Of a stretch of DNA of 22,354 nucleotides, positions 2,477 to 16,704 are shown piece after piece (positions within the stretch are counted from its first letter, which is position 1; each line of letters begins with the position of its first letter). The notes under the pieces are model-generated. The model worked only from the letters and a program-made list of their open reading frames with translations. It had not been told where the DNA came from and ran no database searches. The DNA lies in IMG/VR virus record IMGVR_UViG_3300025108_000424, positions 1 to 22,354 of that record. One strand, given 5' to 3'. The stretch comes from a virus. The translations under genes were made by a program, and so were the position numbers.

Positions 2477-3937
2477 TTAATTTAATACACTAGTGTTAAA
2501 TGCAGAGGTGTTAAGTACACTACTTGATCCGGAGACCAATACCACATTTATCGATTCTGTTATTGTAGCACTATCTGATAAAGATTTACCAAAAGTATGT
2601 GCTAAACTTTCTGAGATAGAAGTGCTATCTGTATAGATGCTTCCAGCCCCAGAAGTAAAAACATCAGCTAAACTTATAGTCTCGCTAAAAGATGTTGAAA
2701 ATGAATGAGCAATACTTTCTGTAATTGTAGGAGTATCTGCAAAACTAGTTGAAAAAGTAAATACAGGAGCACTGTCACCCACACCCACAATATTTCCTTT
2801 GTTTATACCAAAGTCTGTTTGCAGATCATCAGAAGCACTAGCAGTATCATCTAATGCATAACTGTCTGAAAAAGCCCGTGCAAACGTAGCTACACGACTA
2901 AATGATTCGGACATGACCACAGATTCAGCAACTTGTACGCTAACTGCACCGCCCATACCACTGTGGTTTGTACAATAATAATGTAAAGACGCTGGTGTAG
3001 ATCCAGTTACTTGTATCTCTACGTAAGCACCAGAAGACCCAGGTGTGCCACTTACAGTCACGTTAGTTGTGTACGCAGAGCCTCCACCATGTGAACCGTT
3101 TGCTGTTTCTGAAAACCTTAATGGGTGTCCACTAACACTAGAGTCCGATAAATCAAACTTATATGTTTTACCTACATCTAACGTTAGTGCTGGGCTATTA
3201 ACACCATCAATGTGGTACTTATTGCCTGACCCATATGAGTTTGTGGCAGAAGCAACGGTTACTGTATAAGTGACTGTACCGCTTTCTGGTATTGCTTTGC
3301 CTACCCCCAACACATTTGACTCTGCAATGGTTGCAGTATCAGACTGTGGTAAATCAACACTAAATATAGGGCTATCAGAAACTGACAAAGTGTCACTTTT
3401 TGCTGGATCAACACTTAAAACCTCTGAGTCTAAAAATGACAAAGTGTCACTTTTTGTTGGTTCTATACTTAATGCAGGAGCATCAGAAAGTGTACTACTA
3501 TCATCAAATGCTGTACTAAAAGCAATTGCAGGCGCATCAGAAAGTGTTGGTGTATCACTAAATGCCCTAACAAAATCTACTACTTTACTAAGAGATTCAG
3601 CAATACTAACCGTTTCAGATTTACTGCTAGCAAATGCTGAAGCTAGTTCTTCTGCTATAGAAACAGTTTCTGTCTTTGTTGTTGTGAATGTAAATGCTGG
3701 TGCATCGGTTAAACCAAAACTTTCAGCATTTGGGTGCCCAGAAATAAAGTAAAGGTTTTTACTATCGGCATCTAATAATACATTTACAGCCGATAAATCT
3801 ACGTACTGTAATGACGTTTGTAAATTTGTAAACGTAACAAGAGATCTAAGGTTTTGAAAAACAGAAACGGGTTGAATCGAATCTGTGTCAACAGTAACCT
3901 TTAGGTTGACATAATCAACTGTAAACTTGATGGCCAT
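2477..3937 (-). CDS. Repeat-rich tail-associated protein with embedded cupredoxin-like domain
   Basis: A 486-aa Ser/Thr/Asp-rich protein. Residues 1-70 form an N-terminal domain beginning MAIKFT, close to the fibre's MAVKFT. Residues 71-216 are about eight 18-aa repeats of the type SDTxTLSDAPAxxFSTxF. Residues ~219-336 form a different domain with cupredoxin features: His271 in SGHPLRF and Cys322-x2-His325-x2-Met328 in YYCTNHSGMGG. From 337 the repeats resume to about 471. A 20-aa variant (SETVSIAES... at 107 and AESVVMSES... at 337) occurs on both sides of the insertion. The start at 3937 overlaps the upstream stop by one base (TAATG), which implies coupled translation. Position suggests a tail appendage or adhesin-like decoration. 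Whether the domain binds copper is unknown; the Cys-Met spacing is shorter than in plastocyanin. Confidence 0.75.
   Translation of the reverse strand: MAIKFTVDYVNLKVTVDTDSIQPVSVFQNLRSLVTFTNLQTSLQYVDLSAVNVLLDADSKNLYFISGHPNAESFGLTDAPAFTFTTTKTETVSIAEELASAFASSKSETVSIAESLSKVVDFVRAFSDTPTLSDAPAIAFSTAFDDSSTLSDAPALSIEPTKSDTLSFLDSEVLSVDPAKSDTLSVSDSPIFSVDLPQSDTATIAESNVLGVGKAIPESGTVTYTVTVASATNSYGSGNKYHIDGVNSPALTLDVGKTYKFDLSDSSVSGHPLRFSETANGSHGGGSAYTTNVTVSGTPGSSGAYVEIQVTGSTPASLHYYCTNHSGMGGAVSVQVAESVVMSESFSRVATFARAFSDSYALDDTASASDDLQTDFGINKGNIVGVGDSAPVFTFSTSFADTPTITESIAHSFSTSFSETISLADVFTSGAGSIYTDSTSISESLAHTFGKSLSDSATITESINVVLVSGSSSVLNTSAFNTSVLN
2525..2929 (-). repeat. 18-aa protein repeats, block B
   Basis: Residues 337-471 resume the pattern after the cupredoxin-like domain. 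Units ADTPTITESIAHSFSTSF, SETISLADVFTSGAGSIY and TDSTSISESLAHTFGKSL are each 18 residues. The first unit (AESVVMSESFSRVATFARAF) is the 20-residue variant also found in block A. A less regular stretch at about 357-399 separates it from the clean units. Confidence 0.75.
3290..3727 (-). repeat. 18-aa (54-bp) protein repeats, block A
   Basis: Residues 71-216 break into 18-residue units such as SDTPTLSDAPAIAFSTAF, DDSSTLSDAPALSIEPTK, SDTLSFLDSEVLSVDPAK and SDTLSVSDSPIFSVDLPQ. One unit is 20 residues. At DNA level an 18-base stretch (plus strand GACAAAGTGTCACTTTTT) recurs exactly 54 bp apart at 3384 and 3438, so the last duplication is fairly recent. Confidence 0.85.
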
Positions 3938-4330: not shown

Positions 4331-7300
4331 CTAATTTTCTCTGTCAAACCCACCTACTTGATTGTAGCCCGGTATAAAGTCATCTATTTTTAATTTACCC
4401 TGTGGGAAATCCCATAGTTTTTCAAAAGTTGGTCCTAGTGGGCCAACAAAGAAAGGATCTCCATAGGTCTTGCCAGAAATTACAGGTAGCATAAGTGCGA
4501 ATGGTCCTAATGCCCCACTTCTATCAAGTATTTCCATGGAGTATTCTCCATAGTCCATGTCTAAAGATTTTCTATAATTTCGTTCTGTAGAGTCTACACC
4601 TGGAAGAGCCCAAGCCAATCCACCTTTAAACCTCTCTCGCAAATCAAATCCTAACATAGTCAACGGTATCAAAGTAGCCGCAGCTAAAAGTAATGGCGCC
4701 GCAGACTGAGACATAGATTCTCCCTCTTCCCTTCTTGCGTTCATTTCTCGACCGATGCCACCAATGACGGTTTTACCATAAGCGTAGAAGAATGATTTTA
4801 ATTGCCAAACTAAAGCAAATCTAGGATCTGAAGCCCAAGCAGGTCTTTCAGAAGCGTTAGGTCTTACAATAGACTCATCTACAAACCTATACAAGGCCAC
4901 TTTTACTTTTTTACCAGCGGGGGTTTCAAGTGATTGTTCGCCAGCGTTCCAATCTGCAACGTCTTGTGGAGTTAAACCGAGTTCTTTTAAATACCTAATA
5001 GAACGTTGATCACCCTCTTGCGCCCTTCTACCATGTTCAATAATAAAACTTTTGCCCATACCAGCAGCAAAAACCCTAGTAAATTTAGTAAACCATTCTG
5101 TTCCTGTATATTTAAAAAAGCCCTCGTTTGCACTTTTAGAACCTTCGGTCATATAGTCCATTTCACCAGCATTAACAAACATCATATTAATTGCATCGGT
5201 GCTAACAGCCCCTATGTCGTAGGCTAATCGCATAGCTTCTTCGTCGCCTTTTAAAGCACTATAAAATATTTTTGCTGTTTCTCTTAACTTAGGTAGTTCT
5301 TTAGACCTAAGCACGGGTCCTGCTACATCAGGAAAAGATGCAAACACTGTCAAGGCTAACAAACCAAAAATGTTTGCTGTTAAAGCCCAACTATTTATTG
5401 TTTTTAATTTAGGGTATTTTACAAATAACTCTGGGTTAATCTTACCCAAAGAAGCTAGCACCATGCTTGTAGCAATCTCTTTGTCTTTTTCGGTGGGAAG
5501 CTGATCTATTAACTCTTGTATACGTTTAGCTCCACCCCTTCTGTTTAGTTCAGCCCGTTTAATTGTAGAAGTTACATAATTACGCAAAGCCTGTGCGGGG
5601 TTTACTAGAGCCGAGTTACCTTGTCCATCTACAGCTTTTCTTAATTCTGTAGTAGGGATGTTTCTAAATACATCAGATCTACTTTTAGAAAGTCCCAATG
5701 CAAATTTTCCAGCCTCACTGTAAAGATCTATATTAGTGTTTTCAGGATCAGATATAAGAAGATTTACCATCTCTCTTGCAACTTTAGGGGTAATAGTAAA
5801 CTCTCTTTCGCCGTCTTTAAACTTCTTACCTTTGTTAAACTCTACTAATAAAGCAACAACTTTATCTTGTATTACAGTGCTGTTTTCTATGTTTTGCAAA
5901 GCAATAGAACGCGGGAAATAATTGCTCATTTTTCTTATGCCAGCATACTTTGCAAAGTTTTCATCATCATACATTTTTGATAAAAACTCTCTAATCTCAC
6001 GTGCTTTTGGGCTTAGTTTATCAGTGTTTATTCGACCGTCTTCTGCTTCATAAAGAGCTTCCATAGCTTCATCAGTAACTTCGCTAAGTTCTTCAAAACC
6101 TAAAATACGAGCTATTTTGTTTGTGTACTCATATATTTTTTGTTGTTTAGCTTTACTCCAACCTAACTCACTAGTTGTTTGTGATTGAGAATATAGAATA
6201 TTTGCTATTTGTACACCTATAGGCCCAAGTCCCCTAAGCATGTTATCGGCTGTGTAAACTACTTCTTTTCCTGTACCTAATGCTTTTCTAACCCATCTTG
6301 CGGTTTTAGATTCAGATTCAGCTAGTTTTTTTGCTGTTCTTGCTAATCTTTCTACTGCAGGTTTTGACCCTGCGTTTTTAGATATTTTTGGTAACTCATC
6401 AATAACAATACTTCTTATAATTGCGCTATTAAACATTCGGTTTGGCGTACGTTGTGGGTTACCTAACCCACGTTTTCTATCAGAAATAAGTTTTGTTATA
6501 TACTCATCAAAAGCCGGATCTACTTTAAACCTGTTTCTAAATGACTGAGACATCTTTTTAAAGAAAGCCCTTAGTTTTGCAGCTATTCTTTTGTAAATAG
6601 CTTCTCCACCATCAGTGGCTTTTGCAGTCTCATCAATTAAAAATTTAGCAATTTGGTTAGCACCGTGTTCTTCAAATCTGGCTGCTATGTTTTTAGGTTC
6701 TGAACCTTCCATACCAGGAAAGTTTAGATCTTGCTCTAGTTCAAACTTTTTAAAGTTTTTTACAAGTAATTTATAAGCATTACTATTTTGTTTTAGACTC
6801 ATAGAAAACTCTTGTTCTAAAATAGAGTGTCCTAACTCGTGCATGAGAGAAATAGCTGCTTTGCCTTCTGCTTCAGCGCTTGCGCCTTTTTTAGCATCAA
6901 TTATTATAAAATCTGCGCCGTCTGCTCCAGTTTGATAACTAATAATTCTACCACCAGCATTACCCTGGCGTATGAACTCTTGCTCTTCCATAATTGCATC
7001 TAAAACTTGATTATTCCCTACATCATTAAAAGTAACTACATCATCAGTAGTAAAAACATATATATCACGCTTGTTTTTAAAATCATTCCTAACAATCTTC
7101 ATAACTGTAGGTAAAAATTTAACATCTTGAAAAGACTCAGTAACTTTTTTTGATATAAAAGATACAGGGTCTCTTCTAGTAGTCTCGGGTCGTAAAGGGT
7201 CTTTAGGTCTGTTTTTAAACTCGTCTGCAGCCCTTGCATCGGCCATATCTGTAGAATCTAAGGCTATTGTCTTTTCTCCTGCTTCTAGTCCTGGAATTGC

Positions 7301-10300
7301 TCTTTGTGCTAATTCAGGATCGTAGCTACCTTGTGTTTCTAATTGCCTTATAAATTTTAAATTCCCAGCAATGCCTAATTCTTTTTCTAATCTTTCTTTT
7401 TCTTTGGTTAAATCATTAATTTCTTGTTGGGCTTGTGTTTTATCTGCTTGAGGCGCCACGGTGTCATTTAAAGTAACCTCTCGTGCAGAGATTAAAGCTA
7501 AAACACTGGTATACATTTTTCCAAGCCCATCAGCGTTTTCTCGTATAACCCTATTTATTTTACTTCGATTTCGTCTAATTATTTCTCTTGTACGCTCTTG
7601 ATTAGCATCTTGATTTACAGGAACAGTAGCAGCCTCGCCAGTAGTACCACCAGCAGCGCCACTTTCTCCACCTGTAGCTATAAATTCGTCTGGGTTTTTA
7701 GGTTGTGTATCAGTTCCAGCTAATTGTTGCCTACTTAAATCCCTTTCTGCAGCAGTAGCTTCTTCTTCGGTTTTTAATGCTGCTCGTTTAACTGCAAGTT
7801 CCTGTTGGATGTTTTTAAAGCCATCTTCCGGTTCAGCTTTTGGATTATCTTCAAGTTCCTGTATACGATTTTGTAATTCAGTACTTTTATCAGAAAACTC
7901 CCCGCGCTGTGCAGCTAGTTCTGCCATAGAAAATTGTTGGTCCCCGCGGCCTTTTGTATAAACAATAGCGCTTGCTTCTTCTTCTGCAGTTAGTTCTCCT
8001 ATAGGCCTGTCTTTAACAGTAGAAGTGGTAACTTCCCCGGTTTCCTTATTTATAGTTTCTATTTTCCCACTCCAGAAGAACTCATAGCCTAAAACTAAAG
8101 CTTCTGCTGCAGCTACTTGAAAACCTTGGTTAGCAGTTTCTAAATCGCCGGTAGCACTAACTTGAGATTTAGTTCTATTGTTGTATCCACGGCCAAAACT
8201 AGTAAGCCTTGGCATGTCAATAAATTGAGGTTGTACCCCTTTTTCTTTATTTGCGGGAGTTAAAACTTTCCAGGAAGAATCTTGTTCAGCAGCTATATAC
8301 CCCCTAGCTTTAATTCTTGCTTGGCTTACCCAATGCGCAACTTCTACATCCATATCTAACTCGCCAGGAAGAGTGTACTTAAGCATGCCGTGAAAAGGCG
8401 TACCATCTTTATCTTGTCCAATTTCAATAATATCAAAGTAAAATGCCTGTCCAGCTTCTTTAGATCTTTTTGCAAAGTTGTTAAGAAGAGAACCAGAATA
8501 AATATTGTCTTTTATATTAGCAATAAGTTCAGGTTGAAAACCAAATGCGTAAACCAAAGCATTTTCTTTGCTTGTTTCGTAAGCTTCTGCGGCTGTTCTA
8601 CCTTGCCCCCCACTATCTGGTTTTGTGCTCATGGGTCTAGTTGAATCATTACCCTGCCAACCCTTTTTATCTTTTTTATCTTCCTCTTTTGAGTTTTCTG
8701 TTTGTTTAGCAAATTTAATTGGGTCTTCTTTAGAACCCATTTCATTTGTTACTAACTCAGACTCAAAAGAAGTTGCTCCCATTGCACCAGCTGCAAAAGA
8801 TGCCATACGATCATCAAGAGCTGCTAAATCTAATTCATCAACTTGTTCTTCTTGGGAAGCTATACCTTCTAATTCTTGTTGAAGTTGGCCTTCTGGGGCC
8901 GCTTCTTGGGCACCGCTTGCTCCCTGTCTAATAAGTTCAATAGCTTGGAAGTCTTGTCTTAAAGTCTGTTGTTTTTGTGGGGATAGGTTTTCTATTCCAC
9001 CTGCAGCTCTTGCTTCTTGTAAAAGCCCTTGATACCTAGCAATTAATGCTTCATCTTCTTTAGCAGTTTGCTGGTCCTCGAGATCCATACTACGTCTTTT
9101 AGGTTGTTGCGCTTCTATAAGTTCTTTTCTTTCTGCTAAATGATCTTCTATAGAAATTGCGCCACTGATACTATAATTTTCGGGATTTTTTCCAAAAATT
9201 TGCCTAGCTTTTGCTTGGGCCCCGACAAGGCCTAACTCATTTGTTTGTTGATACCAAACTAAATTGTTTTCGTTATCTCGAACTTCAACAACAATACTAT
9301 CACCTTCTTGTCTACCCCTAGAGTAATTTAAATTTTCTACTAAAAATTCATCAATTTTTTGATTGTCATATTGATTATTTTTTATAAGAGCATCAAAAGC
9401 AGCAGCTTTGTCTTTATTAGTTGTAAAAAAACCACCTTTCCCGTCAATACTTTGTTGGTAAACCGTGCCTAACAGTTCTTCATTGTTTAAATTAGATTCT
9501 GCAAAAGTGTTATATTCCGGAATGCTATTTTCATCAATCCAAACAGCATCTTTTTTATTGTTTGGATCTTGCATAGCTTTAAATTGAGCTGCTATCCATT
9601 GAACTGGTTCAGGCGCTACATCTCCAAACTGTTCTGCTTGCCCTGTTTCTTGAGCTATGTAAGCTTCTTGAATTCTACCAGCATATACATCAGCTACATT
9701 TTTTCTAGCTTTTTCATACACACCAGCAGCTGCGCCAGAAACAGTTCCCCCTGCAGCACCCATACCCATACCGCCAAAAAATCCCATAAACAAAGCTTGG
9801 GACCTATCTAAATTTGCTTGTGCTTCAGTGTAGTCTTCATCAATAGCAAACTTTTGTTGCACTGACATTTCTTCTTGTATTCTTTCTGTAGCCCCTTCTA
9901 CAACAGCCGATCTTCCTGCTCCTTTTAATAGGCCCCCAAATAAGTTTTGTTTTAAACTTCCACCTTTAGAAGACTGCAATATTCCTTTAAACCCCCGTAA
10001 AACAAGAGCTTCTCCTCCTACCCCTACAGCAGCAAAAGGAACACCAAAAGCTAAAGATTGAAGCCCCTGTTCGGCTTCTATCATGTCTTGTTCTGCAAAA
10101 TCTCCAAAGGCAGTCCCTACTCCTTGTGGATATTCTTGGCTAACTGCGCCGGCTACGGCTCCTCGGGTAGTAAGTTTAGACCGACGAGTTTCTTTTAAAA
10201 TTTTAAAAGCCCCCTCTATTAAGTCTTGCTCTTCTTTTTTAAGATTCCATGGTAAGTCTTTTCCTTTTTTTCTAGCTTGATCATTAGCAATGTATTTTTT

Positions 10301-10861
10301 AACAATGTCTTTTACTTCTTTGTTAAGAATTGCTTTTTGAGCAGCTGACTTCATAATAGCTTGTGTGCCCACGCTAGTAGAAAGTATTCCGGCTCCTATA
10401 GTAGCAGCTGTACCCGCTCCTATAACAGCTCCCGCAGCTGCACCTGTTAAAGCGGCGCCAATACTAGTAGCAGCGGATGGGAGAAACTGTCCTGTTGCGC
10501 TAACAGCTTGATTAATAAAGCCCCCAAAAGTGGGTTCTTCTAAAAATTCTTCAAAGGACTCCATACCAGCAAGATAGTTTGAAGAAGCTTCTTGGTTAAT
10601 ACGAGCCTTATTAAGATTATTTTGGACAGAATCGGTATCGCCCCTAAGTGAAGCAACAGCAGCAGCAAAATTATTAAGATTAGATTCTAAATTAGCAGAT
10701 CCGGCTTTTACACTTTCTCTAAAAATTTCAATTGGATCTGAAAGCACAAAACTTTGAGGTAAAGCCGCGTCTTCATTTTGCCCTAAAGCGGTTAAATCGT
10801 TTGGGCCGCGTCTTTGTCTATTTTGTCCAAGAGCTTGTAAATCAGAAATTTTATCTGCCAT
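4331..10861 (-). CDS. Giant internal virion / polyvalent protein with HELGH zinc-protease motif
   Basis: A 2176-aa protein, the largest in the window and probably ejected with the DNA. Residues 1-30 hold two copies of DLxALGQN (7-14, 22-29). Gly/Ala-rich hydrophobic stretches at about 112-172, 257-290 and 355-380 could insert in membranes. The middle (about 560-1150) is Gln/Glu-rich with coiled-coil character. A zincin-like motif HELGH lies at 1341-1345, with FEEHGANQIAKF (Glu1397/1398) as a possible third ligand. The C-terminal ~750 residues carry NYFPR, hydrophobic segments near 1821-1850 and 2050-2075, and RPAWASDPRFALVWQLKSFF, which recall C-terminal regions of large polyvalent phage proteins. 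The gene starts 1 nt after the 746-aa stop (TGA-T-ATG) with only a weak ribosome site. Position matches T7 gp16, but it is ~860 residues longer and no lytic transglycosylase motif was seen. Confidence 0.8.
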   Translation of the reverse strand: MADKISDLQALGQNRQRRGPNDLTALGQNEDAALPQSFVLSDPIEIFRESVKAGSANLESNLNNFAAAVASLRGDTDSVQNNLNKARINQEASSNYLAGMESFEEFLEEPTFGGFINQAVSATGQFLPSAATSIGAALTGAAAGAVIGAGTAATIGAGILSTSVGTQAIMKSAAQKAILNKEVKDIVKKYIANDQARKKGKDLPWNLKKEEQDLIEGAFKILKETRRSKLTTRGAVAGAVSQEYPQGVGTAFGDFAEQDMIEAEQGLQSLAFGVPFAAVGVGGEALVLRGFKGILQSSKGGSLKQNLFGGLLKGAGRSAVVEGATERIQEEMSVQQKFAIDEDYTEAQANLDRSQALFMGFFGGMGMGAAGGTVSGAAAGVYEKARKNVADVYAGRIQEAYIAQETGQAEQFGDVAPEPVQWIAAQFKAMQDPNNKKDAVWIDENSIPEYNTFAESNLNNEELLGTVYQQSIDGKGGFFTTNKDKAAAFDALIKNNQYDNQKIDEFLVENLNYSRGRQEGDSIVVEVRDNENNLVWYQQTNELGLVGAQAKARQIFGKNPENYSISGAISIEDHLAERKELIEAQQPKRRSMDLEDQQTAKEDEALIARYQGLLQEARAAGGIENLSPQKQQTLRQDFQAIELIRQGASGAQEAAPEGQLQQELEGIASQEEQVDELDLAALDDRMASFAAGAMGATSFESELVTNEMGSKEDPIKFAKQTENSKEEDKKDKKGWQGNDSTRPMSTKPDSGGQGRTAAEAYETSKENALVYAFGFQPELIANIKDNIYSGSLLNNFAKRSKEAGQAFYFDIIEIGQDKDGTPFHGMLKYTLPGELDMDVEVAHWVSQARIKARGYIAAEQDSSWKVLTPANKEKGVQPQFIDMPRLTSFGRGYNNRTKSQVSATGDLETANQGFQVAAAEALVLGYEFFWSGKIETINKETGEVTTSTVKDRPIGELTAEEEASAIVYTKGRGDQQFSMAELAAQRGEFSDKSTELQNRIQELEDNPKAEPEDGFKNIQQELAVKRAALKTEEEATAAERDLSRQQLAGTDTQPKNPDEFIATGGESGAAGGTTGEAATVPVNQDANQERTREIIRRNRSKINRVIRENADGLGKMYTSVLALISAREVTLNDTVAPQADKTQAQQEINDLTKEKERLEKELGIAGNLKFIRQLETQGSYDPELAQRAIPGLEAGEKTIALDSTDMADARAADEFKNRPKDPLRPETTRRDPVSFISKKVTESFQDVKFLPTVMKIVRNDFKNKRDIYVFTTDDVVTFNDVGNNQVLDAIMEEQEFIRQGNAGGRIISYQTGADGADFIIIDAKKGASAEAEGKAAISLMHELGHSILEQEFSMSLKQNSNAYKLLVKNFKKFELEQDLNFPGMEGSEPKNIAARFEEHGANQIAKFLIDETAKATDGGEAIYKRIAAKLRAFFKKMSQSFRNRFKVDPAFDEYITKLISDRKRGLGNPQRTPNRMFNSAIIRSIVIDELPKISKNAGSKPAVERLARTAKKLAESESKTARWVRKALGTGKEVVYTADNMLRGLGPIGVQIANILYSQSQTTSELGWSKAKQQKIYEYTNKIARILGFEELSEVTDEAMEALYEAEDGRINTDKLSPKAREIREFLSKMYDDENFAKYAGIRKMSNYFPRSIALQNIENSTVIQDKVVALLVEFNKGKKFKDGEREFTITPKVAREMVNLLISDPENTNIDLYSEAGKFALGLSKSRSDVFRNIPTTELRKAVDGQGNSALVNPAQALRNYVTSTIKRAELNRRGGAKRIQELIDQLPTEKDKEIATSMVLASLGKINPELFVKYPKLKTINSWALTANIFGLLALTVFASFPDVAGPVLRSKELPKLRETAKIFYSALKGDEEAMRLAYDIGAVSTDAINMMFVNAGEMDYMTEGSKSANEGFFKYTGTEWFTKFTRVFAAGMGKSFIIEHGRRAQEGDQRSIRYLKELGLTPQDVADWNAGEQSLETPAGKKVKVALYRFVDESIVRPNASERPAWASDPRFALVWQLKSFFYAYGKTVIGGIGREMNARREEGESMSQSAAPLLLAAATLIPLTMLGFDLRERFKGGLAWALPGVDSTERNYRKSLDMDYGEYSMEILDRSGALGPFALMLPVISGKTYGDPFFVGPLGPTFEKLWDFPQGKLKIDDFIPGYNQVGGFDREN

Positions 10862-10862
10862 A

Positions 10863-13103
10863 TCATGCTTCAGTTAAAAAACTCATTAACACTGCACGTT
10901 CATCAGAACCCTGAGTTCCAAAAAGTTGAGTTATTTGAGCCTGTGTCATGTTTCCTTCCGTTTCTCTACCTGCTGGGTCTGTAAAATAAATTTCAGCTAC
11001 ATATCTTCTACCATTTTTTACTTCTATTCGGGCTTTCATTCTATCTAGGGCTGCTCCAATAGCTTGTGGGTCATTACTTCTAAATATATCTCCCAACCAA
11101 TCTAGCCCCCACTGGCTTCCGTTTTCCTCAACAAATTTAGTAACTATTTGGCCATAAACGTTTTTTACAGTTTCTTCAGTATTTGCATCTCTAAACCTAA
11201 CATCGGTTCCTGTTACAACATAAGACCTATTTCTAGTGAACTCACCTAGTAAATTTTTTATTCTTTGTCTTGTGTTTGCGGCTTTTTCGCTGCTACCAGA
11301 TATTTTTGTTGCATCTCTACCTTTCCTTGATCCCCCCTCTTTAAATTGAGGGTAAAGTATATTGGTGGCTTCAGTAGTTATATCTTTTAAATCGCCCGAT
11401 AATTTATCAGAATATTCTAAAGACTTAAACCTTAAATTTTCATAGTTTATATCTAGTTGATCTCGTTGAGTTGGAGTAGTAGAAGCGTTACCTGTTTGAA
11501 TTTGATTTTCATATGTTTTATATAAATTTATCATTTTTGTTGGGTCATTTTGGCTTGTTGTAAAAGCCAAAGTAGCAGCAAGAGCCTGTCGTTGCCCAAT
11601 GTTAAGTTGCCCTTCTAGTTTTTTTAAATCATCTAATTTTTGAATATCAAATCTGTTAAGAATAGCCTGCACCTCTTTTACTTTATCTTGCCCGAGTTGT
11701 CTTATTTTAGCTTCATTCTCTTGCGCCCATTTTTGCTGCCCCTCTAAATCAGCTGGAACTGGTGGTATTTCAAGTTCTTCTGCAGTTGGTAGTGGTTCGG
11801 TTGGAGGAATACGCCCATCTAGTTTAGCTAAAGTTGATTCTAATTCTGTTGTATATGCCTGTCGAGTTGAAGCATCTAAAGCTGGGTTGTTTTGTAACTG
11901 ATCTTGTAAAAACTTAGCTCTATTTCTAGCTGGTAGTTCAGCGCTTGTTTTCGCTTCAGAAGACTCTTGCCTTTGGGTGTTAACCGCAACATCCATTTGT
12001 TCTTCAGCAAAAGCAATTGCTTCATCAATAGTTTTTATGTTCCTTTGTTTACTTTTAAACATATCTTCAACGTCTTTAAATTTTTTAAGGGCTTCTGGAT
12101 TATTTTTAAATATGTTTTTAACTTCTCTATAAAATTGCCTAGGAGCTTTAAAGCTAGTTGGGTCTTTAAAGAATTTAGATTCTTTGTTTGGGTTTCTTTC
12201 GGCATCAAGTTTTTCGCTAATAAGACGCTGATGAAGCATTTTTTGAAACTCGTAATATTTAGAATTGTCGCTTTCTTTGCCTTCAAAAATTCTATTATAT
12301 TCATCTTTTTCTAAATAACTAAACTTGCCACTAGGATCTTGTTGATCTCCAAATTGACTTTCTTCTTTGGCAAGTTGCCTTGCACCCGGCAAGTCTGAAC
12401 CCTCTCCAGCAGTATTAACAGTTGTTTTAGGATCAGTGTCTAAAGGTGTGTTGTTTGTTGATTCTATATCAGCAGGATCTGTCCCTTGCATAATTTGTTG
12501 TAATGCATTTTGTGCAAAAAGGGCAGCATCTTCTATTTCAACTTTACCTGCTTTTACATCTGCTGCAAGTGGGTCTAAAGAGTCGGTAATTAATTGGGAA
12601 AACCCGTCGCCCTGCCTAGATTCTGGAAAAGCCCTACCCCGTTTTTTTGCTATTCCTAAATTAAGAAAGTGTTCTACTTCTTTTTTACTAAGTTTAATAA
12701 CCTCATCATCTTCTCTGTTAGAAAATCCAAAAGTTTTAGGAAAAAACCCCTGTGGGGTATCTACCATTAAAGAGTAACTTCCGTCTGGATTTGCGTTTAT
12801 ACCCGCTATTTTACCTTCTTTTATTTCTTTGTTATTTACATCTTTGTAAAGTTTTAAAATATCAATTTCATTTAAAAGGTCTGCTGCCATATCACCATGT
12901 ACAAACTTACCATCAGCAGTTTTTTCAAGCAGTGCTTGCATGCCAGAAGCTGTACCATCTTTATTAGTTTTTAGATAGTTACTAAAAGTGTCTGTTATAC
13001 CTAAAGAATTTGACATACTAAAGAACTCTTTATCGCGTAGATTTTTTTTAGCTATACTGTCTGCTTCAAGTTTTCGGACATTCATTAAATCTGCTAAAGC
13101 CAT
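10863..13103 (-). CDS. Internal virion (ejection) protein, T7 gp15-like by position and size
   Basis: A 746-aa, mostly helical, charged and Gln/Asn/Lys/Glu-rich protein with no signal peptide, membrane segment or enzyme motif. It has a Pro-rich linker at about residues 425-450 (PPTEPLPTAEELEIPPVPAD) and a more globular C-terminus. It lies between two ~190-aa proteins and the giant protein. In T7 that place is held by gp15 (747 aa), which forms part of the ejected channel through the cell envelope. No clear sequence similarity to gp15 is visible, so the role rests on order, length and composition. The start at 13103 follows the preceding stop by one base (TAA-T-ATG), with only a weak TTAGG upstream. 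Confidence 0.65.
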   Translation of the reverse strand: MALADLMNVRKLEADSIAKKNLRDKEFFSMSNSLGITDTFSNYLKTNKDGTASGMQALLEKTADGKFVHGDMAADLLNEIDILKLYKDVNNKEIKEGKIAGINANPDGSYSLMVDTPQGFFPKTFGFSNREDDEVIKLSKKEVEHFLNLGIAKKRGRAFPESRQGDGFSQLITDSLDPLAADVKAGKVEIEDAALFAQNALQQIMQGTDPADIESTNNTPLDTDPKTTVNTAGEGSDLPGARQLAKEESQFGDQQDPSGKFSYLEKDEYNRIFEGKESDNSKYYEFQKMLHQRLISEKLDAERNPNKESKFFKDPTSFKAPRQFYREVKNIFKNNPEALKKFKDVEDMFKSKQRNIKTIDEAIAFAEEQMDVAVNTQRQESSEAKTSAELPARNRAKFLQDQLQNNPALDASTRQAYTTELESTLAKLDGRIPPTEPLPTAEELEIPPVPADLEGQQKWAQENEAKIRQLGQDKVKEVQAILNRFDIQKLDDLKKLEGQLNIGQRQALAATLAFTTSQNDPTKMINLYKTYENQIQTGNASTTPTQRDQLDINYENLRFKSLEYSDKLSGDLKDITTEATNILYPQFKEGGSRKGRDATKISGSSEKAANTRQRIKNLLGEFTRNRSYVVTGTDVRFRDANTEETVKNVYGQIVTKFVEENGSQWGLDWLGDIFRSNDPQAIGAALDRMKARIEVKNGRRYVAEIYFTDPAGRETEGNMTQAQITQLFGTQGSDERAVLMSFLTEA

Positions 13104-13104
13104 A

Positions 13105-13677
13105 TTAAATACCTAAAATTGCCATTACAGCTGTTGTTCCTAATCCAACCATTGCGTTGTGGTGCTGGGCTTTTGCCCCTTTGTAAGCGGCTTGTCTATT
13201 TGCTTGCAGATTTGCAGCGTTCCCTAAGCCAGCCATTGCACTTCTATTAAGGCCTTGCCCAATATTAATTAAATCAGACAAAGTTTTTTTATTGCGTTCA
13301 TCTTGAGCAATTCTAGCAGTGTTTAAACCACCAGCTAATCCTATAGCGCCTTGTCGTTGTAATGCGCGGTTTTGTTCTTGCTTTTGGGCTATACTTAATC
13401 CAGCGCCCCCATATCTAGAAAGGTTACGGCTTTGTATGCCTTCTGCTATTTTTTGTTGTTTTCTAACATCTTCCGGAACCCTATCTACTAAAGAAGTGTC
13501 ATCCACAGAAGCTAAAAGTTGTTCTTCAAAAGGCCTAAAGTCTTGCACATAGTCATTGTAATCTTGTCGCAAAAGTGCAGAGTTAGTAGCTTCTGGGTCT
13601 GACACTTCAGGAAGTGTAGAAACGTAATTATTTCTAGTCTCGGGCATAAGTGCGTTAGTGTAATCTCCCAAAGCCAT
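13105..13677 (-). CDS. Small ejection-type internal virion protein (second of a pair)
   Basis: A 190-aa protein. The first ~90 residues are acidic/polar. The rest is Ala/Gly/Gln/Asn/Arg-rich helix (QKQEQNRALQRQGAIGLAGG..., NAANLQANRQAAYKGAKAQ), ending in a hydrophobic tail MVGLGTTAVMAILGI. This mix, a helical body with a membrane-friendly end, is typical of small podoviral ejection proteins such as T7 gp14 (196 aa) and P22 gp7. The start at 13677 has a strong AGGAGG upstream, inside the end of the preceding gene, 2 nt after its TAG. Its composition and length resemble the upstream 197-aa protein, so the two may be old paralogues. No family match is certain. Confidence 0.6.
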   Translation of the reverse strand: MALGDYTNALMPETRNNYVSTLPEVSDPEATNSALLRQDYNDYVQDFRPFEEQLLASVDDTSLVDRVPEDVRKQQKIAEGIQSRNLSRYGGAGLSIAQKQEQNRALQRQGAIGLAGGLNTARIAQDERNKKTLSDLINIGQGLNRSAMAGLGNAANLQANRQAAYKGAKAQHHNAMVGLGTTAVMAILGI

Positions 13678-13679
13678 AA

Positions 13680-14273
13680 CTAACCAAACCTCCTAGGTTC
13701 TACAAAATAACCGCCTAAACCAGAAGTACCAGCATCTTTTGTTTCGTCACTAGAAAGCAAAGCTTCATTTTCAGATTTATTTTGCCCCATTTTAGCTGCA
13801 AACCGGCTCATATTTTTTATATTACCAAGTCTTGTAGCCTGTTTAGCTTTAGCAAAAGCTAATTCTTTTGAGGTGCCGATTCTGGCTGCTTGAGCTAACC
13901 CAGATGCAGCGTCCATTTGTTGTCCTCTTGCTCCAGCTAACAAATTTAATTGTCTATCCCTAGAAATATTTTGCCCTTGTATACTAGCATCCAAAAGATT
14001 ACCAACCGCCGCTGAAGCTAAATCTGCTGCGTTGTCTACGCTAGTGGAGTATTGAAATACTGGTCCGCCCCCTGTAAGAGCCTGCATAGTATCCGCTTGA
14101 GATATACCACGCCCAATTCTATCAAATTCTGTAGCTCTAGCTTCTTCAGCCATATTGACCATTAAAGGTTTATATTTTGTATTAAAATAATCTTTGTCTG
14201 CTTTAGCTATAGAAGCAGAAGTTTTTTCAGCTTCGCTAGCTTGGTAATCTTGTTTTTTTGGTTTACTACTCAT
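13680..14273 (-). CDS. Small ejection-type internal virion protein (first of a pair)
   Basis: A 197-aa basic protein. After a charged N-terminus (SSKPKKQDYQASEAEK) comes an Ala/Gly/Gln-rich helical region (RQLNLLAGARGQQMDAASG and AKAKQATRLGNIKNM). The C-terminus is Gly/Pro/aromatic (GLGGYFVEPRRFG). It has no signal peptide or enzyme motif. Length and place after a GNAT-like gene match T7 gp14 (196 aa), a protein ejected through the tail. The start at 14273 overlaps the upstream stop as ATGA, so its translation is probably coupled to the GNAT-like gene; no strong ribosome site is seen. The ejection role is inferred from context and composition. Confidence 0.6.
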   Translation of the reverse strand: MSSKPKKQDYQASEAEKTSASIAKADKDYFNTKYKPLMVNMAEEARATEFDRIGRGISQADTMQALTGGGPVFQYSTSVDNAADLASAAVGNLLDASIQGQNISRDRQLNLLAGARGQQMDAASGLAQAARIGTSKELAFAKAKQATRLGNIKNMSRFAAKMGQNKSENEALLSSDETKDAGTSGLGGYFVEPRRFG

Positions 14274-14713
14274 ACTTCTTTTTTATAAACATAACTTGTT
14301 AACTTAAATCCATTAGCAGTTGCAGTCTTTGCCCATCCTGGGCGACTTGTGTGAAACTCAATGACCTTCACATTTTTTTCTAAAGCAAGTTTATCTAAAA
14401 AGGTAAACCCTACTTTATTATAATTATACTCTGGTTTTTGGTAGGTTGCCCAGACAAAAAGCGTTGGCTCGCCGCCAGGGTCTGCTATCATTGAGCAAAT
14501 TATAAATCCAATGTATATGTCTTCTTTATAAAACATATACAAAGTTGCATTACTGTTTCGTAATGCTAAGTATACATCTGCTGGAATCCAGTCAGAATAA
14601 CTTTTCTTTCTTATAACCTGTAGATCAGATTCGATTGTTTCATACGCATATCGGATCTCATCTACAGGTATTTCTTCAACAGAGACTCCATTAATAGTCA
14701 ATCTCTGAACCAT
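14270..14713 (-). CDS. GNAT-fold-like protein, T7 gp13-like by position
   Basis: A 147-aa protein with an acetyltransferase-like (GNAT) strand/helix pattern: an N-terminal helix, LYMFYKEDIYIGFIICSMI as the beta hairpin, TLFVWATYQKPEY, a helix FLDKLALEKNV, then VKVIEFHTSRPGWAKTATAN and GFKLTSYVYKKE. The usual acetyl-CoA loop (R/Q-x-x-G-x-G/A) is not evident; the matching place reads YNKVGFTF. It may therefore be a structural or degenerate member. T7 gp13 (138 aa), needed for assembling internal proteins, is classed with the GNAT clan and sits at the same place before gp14-16. The start at 14713 overlaps the upstream gene by 23 nt. The alternative is a true acetyltransferase acting on a phage or host protein. 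Confidence 0.6.
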   Translation of the reverse strand: MVQRLTINGVSVEEIPVDEIRYAYETIESDLQVIRKKSYSDWIPADVYLALRNSNATLYMFYKEDIYIGFIICSMIADPGGEPTLFVWATYQKPEYNYNKVGFTFLDKLALEKNVKVIEFHTSRPGWAKTATANGFKLTSYVYKKEV

Positions 14714-16440: not shown

Positions 16441-16704
16441 CTAGTCTTCTTCCTTTGGTTGAAGTTCATTAGTTTGTTTATCAACATTTTCTACAACAGT
16501 AGTTATAACACCGTCGTAAGTTTCAGCTACTGTATTAACAACGCCACTAACATCTTTTAATGCTGCGCCTGAAATAGAGCCTGCTGTTTTAACGGTTGTA
16601 TCAACTGTGGTCATGGCAATATCTTTACCACCTTCAATTACTGAATTAACAGTTGCACATGAAGTAGCAAATAAGCCAACTAAAATTAAATATAAACCTT
16701 TCAT
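16441..16704 (-). CDS. Small phage lipoprotein
   Basis: An 87-aa protein with a short basic start (MKG), a hydrophobic segment (LYLILVGLFA) and a lipobox ending ATSC with Cys16, so signal peptidase II processing is expected. The mature part has no further membrane helix. It is an amphipathic, Val/Thr/Ala-rich stretch (MTTVDTTVKTAGSISGAALK, VVNTVAETYDGVITTVVENV) with an acidic end (QPKEED). It is the first gene after the capsid terminator. The start at 16704 has AAAGGA upstream, directly after the terminator's T run. Possible roles are superinfection exclusion (Cor/Llp-like), an outer spanin-like lysis factor, or an envelope factor for late infection. No spanin partner is seen nearby, and the function is unknown. 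Confidence 0.75.
   Translation of the reverse strand: MKGLYLILVGLFATSCATVNSVIEGGKDIAMTTVDTTVKTAGSISGAALKDVSGVVNTVAETYDGVITTVVENVDKQTNELQPKEED

Follow-up and report, generated by a model that had tools for sequence, protein, structure and literature searches.

A giant putative ejection protein of the gp16 type with a predicted zincin-like domain

What might a zinc-peptidase motif do in a protein that a phage appears to send into its host ahead of its own DNA? The question is raised by the IMG/VR virus record IMGVR_UViG_3300025108_000424, of which positions 1 to 22,354 were analysed (the window; 22,354 nucleotides, probably a fragment). A giant gene at positions 4331 to 10861 (minus strand) encodes 2176 amino acids (aa) in an open frame from an ATG start, and full-length relatives in viral contigs, with both ends present, span 1693-3146 aa. 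A note made from the letters alone (the original prediction) took this gene for the last of a T7-like ejection cluster, its product about 860 residues longer than T7 gp16 and equipped with the motif HELGH; the reading frame is real, the motif is present, and the excess over the 1318 aa of T7 gp16 comes to 858 residues.

Judged by homology, the product belongs to the gp16-type ejection proteins, and its make-up recalls that of polyvalent proteins. Its predicted layout would run from a helical, hydrophobic N-terminal region through variable middle domains and a zincin-like domain, with HExxH and a later Glu, to a gp16-type helical body. We lean modestly towards the view that it is the largest of three podophage ejection proteins and carries an active zinc peptidase that frees the variable N-terminal part after ejection. 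Computation supports homology between the body and phiKMV-type gp16, a predicted zincin fold, and a nearly fixed spacing between the zincin and the body.

Homology to gp16-type ejection proteins

The helical body (residues 1512-2176; positions 4334 to 6328, minus strand) contains two hydrophobic stretches, at residues 1825-1844 and 2053-2074 (hydropathy only). A body profile of 50 sequences, compared by hhalign, matched nine gp16-type proteins at 98.1% (E 1.2e-13, 496 columns), and the controls, namely reversed profiles, T7 gp15, LKA1 gp47, the 746-aa neighbour and N4, reached at most 1.7%. Split by type, the comparison gave 94.8% and 95.8%, and single members ranged from 0.4% (DE10), with T7 lower still, up to 89.4% (Bertil). 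On this profile evidence the body is homologous to phiKMV-type gp16 ejection proteins which, together with gene order, upholds the assignment to the gp16 type. The link to T7 is indirect: the body matched the family without T7 at 97.4%, and that family matched T7 gp16 at 94.6% over 129 columns. Residues 1757-2042 matched phrog_30152, a virion structural family of PHROGs (3.1e-21), while Pfam at E ≤ 1 gave no match anywhere in the giant protein, polyvalent domains included, and NCBIfam held no family for it.

A structural search of BFVD returned KPP25 (3e-22), LPD-named proteins (from 2e-18) and the internal virion proteins of LKA1 (5e-9), LIMElight (2e-8) and BB8 (internal protein D, 4e-7). 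The TM-scores were 0.28-0.50 (0.28-0.44 for the last three) and the root-mean-square deviation (rmsd) was large, as expected of multidomain models. The LPD-named matches, and relatives with ART-PolyVal, LPD23, SNase or lysozyme domains, speak for the polyvalent character proposed for the protein. A second comparison with PDB structures used model 1, an AlphaFold prediction of residues 1080-2176 from 57 sequences (mean pLDDT 76.4, pTM 0.61; model residue + 1079 = protein residue). The PhiM1 ejection protein (Z 5.8, 271 residues, rmsd 6.2), whose Z may be noise, was the only one with more than 100 aligned residues among the matches listed, the others being short helix matches; the N-terminal model gave no useful match among those listed.

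Gene order points the same way. The window holds a set of 190-, 746- and 2176-aa genes followed by fibre-type genes, and the T7 ejection proteins have 196, 747 and 1318 aa (PMC8954989). Among 80 related loci (the best 80 of 89, found in viral contigs with a C-terminal alignment), a medium (600-960 aa) and a small (170-280 aa) gene precede the giant in 53 of the 65 that could be counted, the other 15 ending at the 5' side; no HExxH was found in any medium gene of these 65 loci. Since the set includes duplicate contigs (L009-L012 repeat the contigs L003, L001, L004 and L002, respectively) and near-copies, all counts are of loci and not of independent viruses, and one locus (L077, with HESMH) is probably KPP25 itself. 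The portal of the window is P22-type (PF16510, E 1.3e-120) and the capsid belongs to PF13252, so that the head genes are not T7-like. Of the proposed T7-like cluster, then, the likeness to T7 and phiKMV ejection proteins is confined to the C-terminal body and to the 190/746/giant order of genes.

In the published description of T7 gp16, the protein occupies the top ring of the core and, once ejected, its C-terminal part spans the inner membrane and reaches below it (PMC8954989). Given the gp16 homology, the window protein should act much as T7 gp16: it would travel in the phage head and leave it before the DNA does, and its body would enter the inner membrane and help to guide the DNA inwards, a role already proposed for T7 gp16. 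Channel formation may be extended to it by analogy, from gp16 homology only. The protein ends in FDREN and so has no positively charged last five residues, a trait given for T7 gp16 and its closest relatives (PMC8954989), and an N-terminal peptidoglycan hydrolase, which T7 has and P22-type proteins do not, found no Pfam match in it.

The zincin-like domain

HELGH (residues 1341-1345; positions 6827 to 6841, minus strand) is the sole HExxH of the giant protein, with 0.002 expected from composition. It lies in a zincin-like metallopeptidase domain placed at residues 1230-1464 (positions 6470 to 7174, minus strand) by model 1, alignment A6 and a hidden Markov model (HMM). Model 1 shows strands at 187-192, 225-230 and 237-242, then the HELGH helix (250-276) and then a helix (310-330) with Glu1398; in this model HELGH and Glu1398 form a zincin-like helix pair after three strands; a model with HELGH outside such a pair would have spoken against a zincin. 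Glu1397 and Glu1398, both put forward as a possible third zinc ligand, are both present, and the candidate can be narrowed to Glu1398 (positions 6668 to 6670, minus strand), the conserved Glu of FEEWYADQ, because position 1397 varies, some relatives having K, R, N, T, Q or D there. Low-confidence linkers flank the domain on both sides in model 1; the one towards the body comprises residues 1465-1511 (positions 6329 to 6469, minus strand; model residues 386-432, pLDDT <50).

The slot of this domain is covered by 74 of the 80 loci, six not reaching it. HExGH (52/74) and HESxH (9/74) each occur with a matching Glu pattern, and the HExxH and Glu of these 61 loci stand 760-920 residues from the C-terminus; many of them are only 12-33% identical to the window over the domain. 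The remaining slots hold KELGN (7/74), HEXXXH (1/74, L073) or irregular forms (5/74), of which L074, L079, L080 and L085 lie at an unusual distance and L082 has a cut end; the Glu motif reads FEEYFADQ in L082 and ASEWFADN in L074, forms that the scoring pattern missed, so that both were scored as doubtful. Loss of His or Glu in close homologues, which would have spoken against a peptidase, was not seen: HELGH is kept in all four close relatives from viral contigs (66-89% identity in the best segment), and the ligands are lost in a distant clade.

These comparisons draw on alignments A4 (the window and 56 of 59 prepared segments; L079, L080 and L085 left out), A5 (the window and 43 of 54; HESxH types and L073, L074, L079, L080 and L085 left out) and A6 (43 of 56 prepared, the same kinds left out as in A5). 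The tree and the body and zincin profiles omit L028, L079, L080, L082, L085, the six loci without the slot, and near-copies, after whose removal 64, 50 and 49 rows, respectively, were kept. Matches of A6 members to peptidase families are weak: 17 of the 43 match M78 (best 1.3e-5) and 15 match M48 (best 8.5e-6).

The ratio of nonsynonymous to synonymous substitution (dN/dS) of the zincin was 0.07-0.22 in three pairs with the window. Immediately upstream, a fast-evolving helical segment and linker (residues 1085-1225; positions 7187 to 7609, minus strand) had 53-55% identity in three window pairs versus 84-97% in the zincin, with dN/dS of 0.46-0.56, and this pre-zincin segment had the highest dN/dS of four regions in eight of nine pairs (exception L021/L023). 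Further variation lies at the N-terminus, where residues 1-600 are 96-100% identical in one close relative, against 31-58% in the other two in which this region is complete; beyond residue 600 the close relatives keep 65-100% per 100 residues, except at 1101-1200 (41-44%). This pattern points to block exchange near residue 590 among close relatives, with residues 1-590 as the block.

Zincin-like motifs in other ejection proteins

Among phage records, tblastn found seven relatives, six KPP25-kind Pseudomonas phages and Aeromonas phage phiA008, with 25-33% identity over 15-23% of the giant protein; a scan of viral contigs based on LKA1 returned only close relatives. ORF88 of KPP25 (Kochitakasuvirus) matches the window type by profile in both body (100%) and zincin (95.6%) and is labelled a virion structural protein in its record (annotation only). 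It differs in having HESMH where the window has HELGH, and its identity is about 25% over 23% of the protein. A KPP25 relative, CRPAP1904, is reported with capsid family pfam13252 (PMC13340246).

The phiKMV-type gp16 proteins and the tetrameric PhiM1 ejection protein gp48 (8vb2) likewise combine a homologous body with HExxH in the largest of three ejection proteins; the nine gp16-type proteins compared are about 840-1170 residues shorter than the giant, and their zincin subtype differs. Six of these nine have a zincin-like HExxH 860-915 residues from the C-terminus, and an E-F/M/L-x-A motif comes after it. The PhiM1 protein (8vb2 chain A), which aligns to Pectobacterium phage PPWS2 at 1.7e-81, has HEAAH at 385-389 and later HEF with Glu449. 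Its residues 268-528 were called endolysin/exotransglycosidase-like by the authors of the structure, who report loop V427-D446 as disordered (PMC11440229); by our count this loop stops just ahead of the second motif. Read from its motifs, the PhiM1 domain may be a zincin and not muralytic.

The virion RNA polymerase of N4 is described as having N-terminal membrane helices, an enzyme, an HExxH domain (C1) and a large helical C2 (PMC12633501). The window differs in having no RNA polymerase among its Pfam matches, and no homology of the body to N4 C2 was found by profile (0.1-0.5%). The zincins themselves form a chain, with 95.6% between the window and KPP25 types, 90.8% between the KPP25 and phiKMV types and 97.8% between the phiKMV type and N4, and less than 1% for reversed controls; the window type matched N4 at 60.8%.

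Zincin domains are also known from the polyvalent proteins with MPTase domains of Iyer 2017, which likewise are very large multidomain phage proteins encoded next to structural genes; the window's own protein differs in having no Pfam polyvalent domain. MPTase domains are thus already published in polyvalent proteins (PMC5512222) and in the N4 polymerase (PMC12633501), and neither "gp16" nor "internal virion" appears as a term in the main text of Iyer 2017 (PMC5512222). Our literature search, in which hits were partly covered and subscription papers such as the KPP25 description lay outside, found no paper linking a zincin to gp16-type ejection proteins, and the available text of the phiGT1 paper contains nothing on a peptidase (PMC10386132).

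Possible roles of the zincin

In the reading that we favour, the zincin would be an active zinc peptidase after ejection and might cut its own chain or a partner ejection protein, a step that we propose with less confidence than ejection itself. Cuts at the flexible joints on either side of it would detach the variable N-terminal part from a body anchored in the membrane. Action on itself or a partner after ejection is favoured because the zincin is fixed relative to the body, flexibly flanked, and placed between the body and the variable parts. Iyer 2017 considers that such a peptidase might process its own protein, be it before packaging, inside the head or after injection, might act on host targets, or might release domains (PMC5512222).

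Several results weigh against this reading. In related peptidases, an Asp that follows the third ligand (ExxxD) serves to steady a zinc ligand. This Asp is near-invariant among the relatives, being present in at least 90% of the 43 A6 rows, but the window has Asn1402 in its place, as do its four closest relatives, which makes zincin activity uncertain; A6 leaves out the HESxH types and some loci, so the 90% figure does not cover these. The window's own zincin segment matched no Pfam peptidase family, profile searches of solved structures gave no significant zincin (best zinc protease E 0.28), and Foldseek of models 1 and 2 against the PDB returned nothing at E ≤ 0.001 and so no solved zincin by fold. 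A direct match of the body to T7 gp16 was not found by hhalign (0.2%), and the gp16-type proteins of LKA1 and Acibel007 have no HExxH. T7 gp16 has HERLH at 559, which is probably there by chance because it falls outside the conserved column of the MAFFT alignment and T7 is very divergent there. Direct zincin links were weak between the window and phiKMV types (26.8%) and 5.8% between the KPP25 type and N4, and wider mixed profiles gave only 3.2% (phiKMV type) and 4.7% on the window side, with 93.1% for gp16-type versus N4; common descent therefore rests on the chain and not on every pair. In addition, seven loci have lost all ligands (see below), and the N4 virion polymerase is reported to be packaged uncut despite its MPTase domain (PMC5512222).

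The zincin might instead be an effector that cuts a host protein of the envelope or cytoplasm after delivery, aiding DNA entry or blocking defence, an option also listed by Iyer 2017 (PMC5512222) that we consider unlikely. It would be consistent with the variation of the motif among loci (HExGH, HESxH, HEXXXH) and with the effector-type domains in giant proteins of relatives. These are an ART-PolyVal domain (PF18760) just before the zincin in L075 (4469-11044, protein residues 1135-1254), LPD23 in L088, and an SNase domain (PF00565) at the start of the giant proteins of L073 (4400-11053) and L007 (10003-16152) and also in phiA008; the SNase-like domain of L073 and L007 is, from its sequence, a possible ejected nuclease. 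Other relatives carry an N-terminal phage lysozyme (PF00959; L040, 3971-8179, residues 15-133), where T7 gp16 has a transglycosylase, or a cpYpsA domain (1 of 44 giant relatives). The named conflict-type domains other than the zincin were found only in relatives and not in the window's protein. Against the effector reading, the near-fixed distance from zincin to C-terminus, despite varying length and content upstream, fits a machine part better than a swappable effector.

The clade with lost ligands bears on a third reading. The seven KELGN loci (L031, L032, L033, L034, L036, L037 and L044) are recognized by the zincin HMM with E-values of 3e-27 to 7e-20 and lack both His and the third Glu, so that all ligands are lost and the fold is kept. 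Reduced to six distinct rows, they group as a single clade (support 100/100) nested in active types (midpoint root, with a warning of long branches), and no HExxH occurs in their stop-free stretches of at least 100 codons (11-21 kb examined per locus). Their zincin dN/dS (0.11-0.31 in four pairs) resembles that of their own body (0.12-0.23), with synonymous sites near saturation in several pairs; on these sequences the KELGN domain is still under purifying selection, and its loss of ligands speaks against a general need for zincin activity. A mainly structural domain, which would serve the ejectosome as a spacer or for packing, with catalysis optional or lost, perhaps in the window too, would accord with this clade and with Asn1402. 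But unless the domain binds metal or is catalytic, it is hard to see why HExxH and Glu should be kept in 61 of 74 loci, many at only 12-33% identity to the window, and we judge the structural reading the least probable of the three.

Extending the favoured reading beyond the window, we tentatively suggest, as a somewhat improbable generalization, that a zinc peptidase has long belonged to the core of the podovirus ejection machine. It would sit at the joint of payload and gp16 body in this group and in KPP25-like, phiKMV-like and PhiM1 phages, stand beside another body in N4, act during entry, and persist as a dead scaffold in one clade. The giant protein itself brings together two lines of work, on polyvalent proteins with zincin domains (Iyer 2017) and on the gp16-type ejection machine. 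The comparison with it suggests that the PhiM1 structure contains a zincin where a muralytic domain was described, and the KELGN clade provides a natural dead control.

N-terminal domains and neighbouring genes

The hydrophobic stretches noticed earlier were located by hydropathy and number four, two in the body and two (residues 142-160 and 270-288) in a Gly/Ala-rich helical region at residues 40-410 (positions 9632 to 10744, minus strand; helices of model 2, parts with pLDDT <50). Two alpha/beta domains follow in model 2, at residues 420-590 (positions 9092 to 9604, minus strand; pLDDT 68-95 in ten-residue blocks) and 757-988 (positions 7898 to 8593, minus strand; 55-94). The PDB fold search gave no meaningful match for either, a weak test in that they were barely covered by the longer query.

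The 746-aa gene (positions 10863 to 13103, minus strand) and the 190-aa gene (positions 13105 to 13677, minus strand) are assigned to the gp15 and gp14 places by position and size only. In hhalign their products showed no homology to gp15 or gp14, although the test was weak because the targets were mostly single sequences, and NCBIfam had no family for the 190-aa protein and one weak match for the 746-aa protein.

Elsewhere on the minus strand, a 147-aa open reading frame (ORF) among the virion genes (14270-14713) has a weak GNAT acetyltransferase match (E 0.041), and an 87-aa ORF near the capsid gene (16441-16704) has a lipoprotein-like start (ATSC). A fibre-like protein (2477-3937) combines repeated Ser/Asp motifs with a weak copper-binding, plastocyanin-like match (E 0.077), and the tail-fibre protein encoded at 7-2019 bears a C-terminal Peptidase_S74 chaperone domain (PF13884, 4.2e-10).

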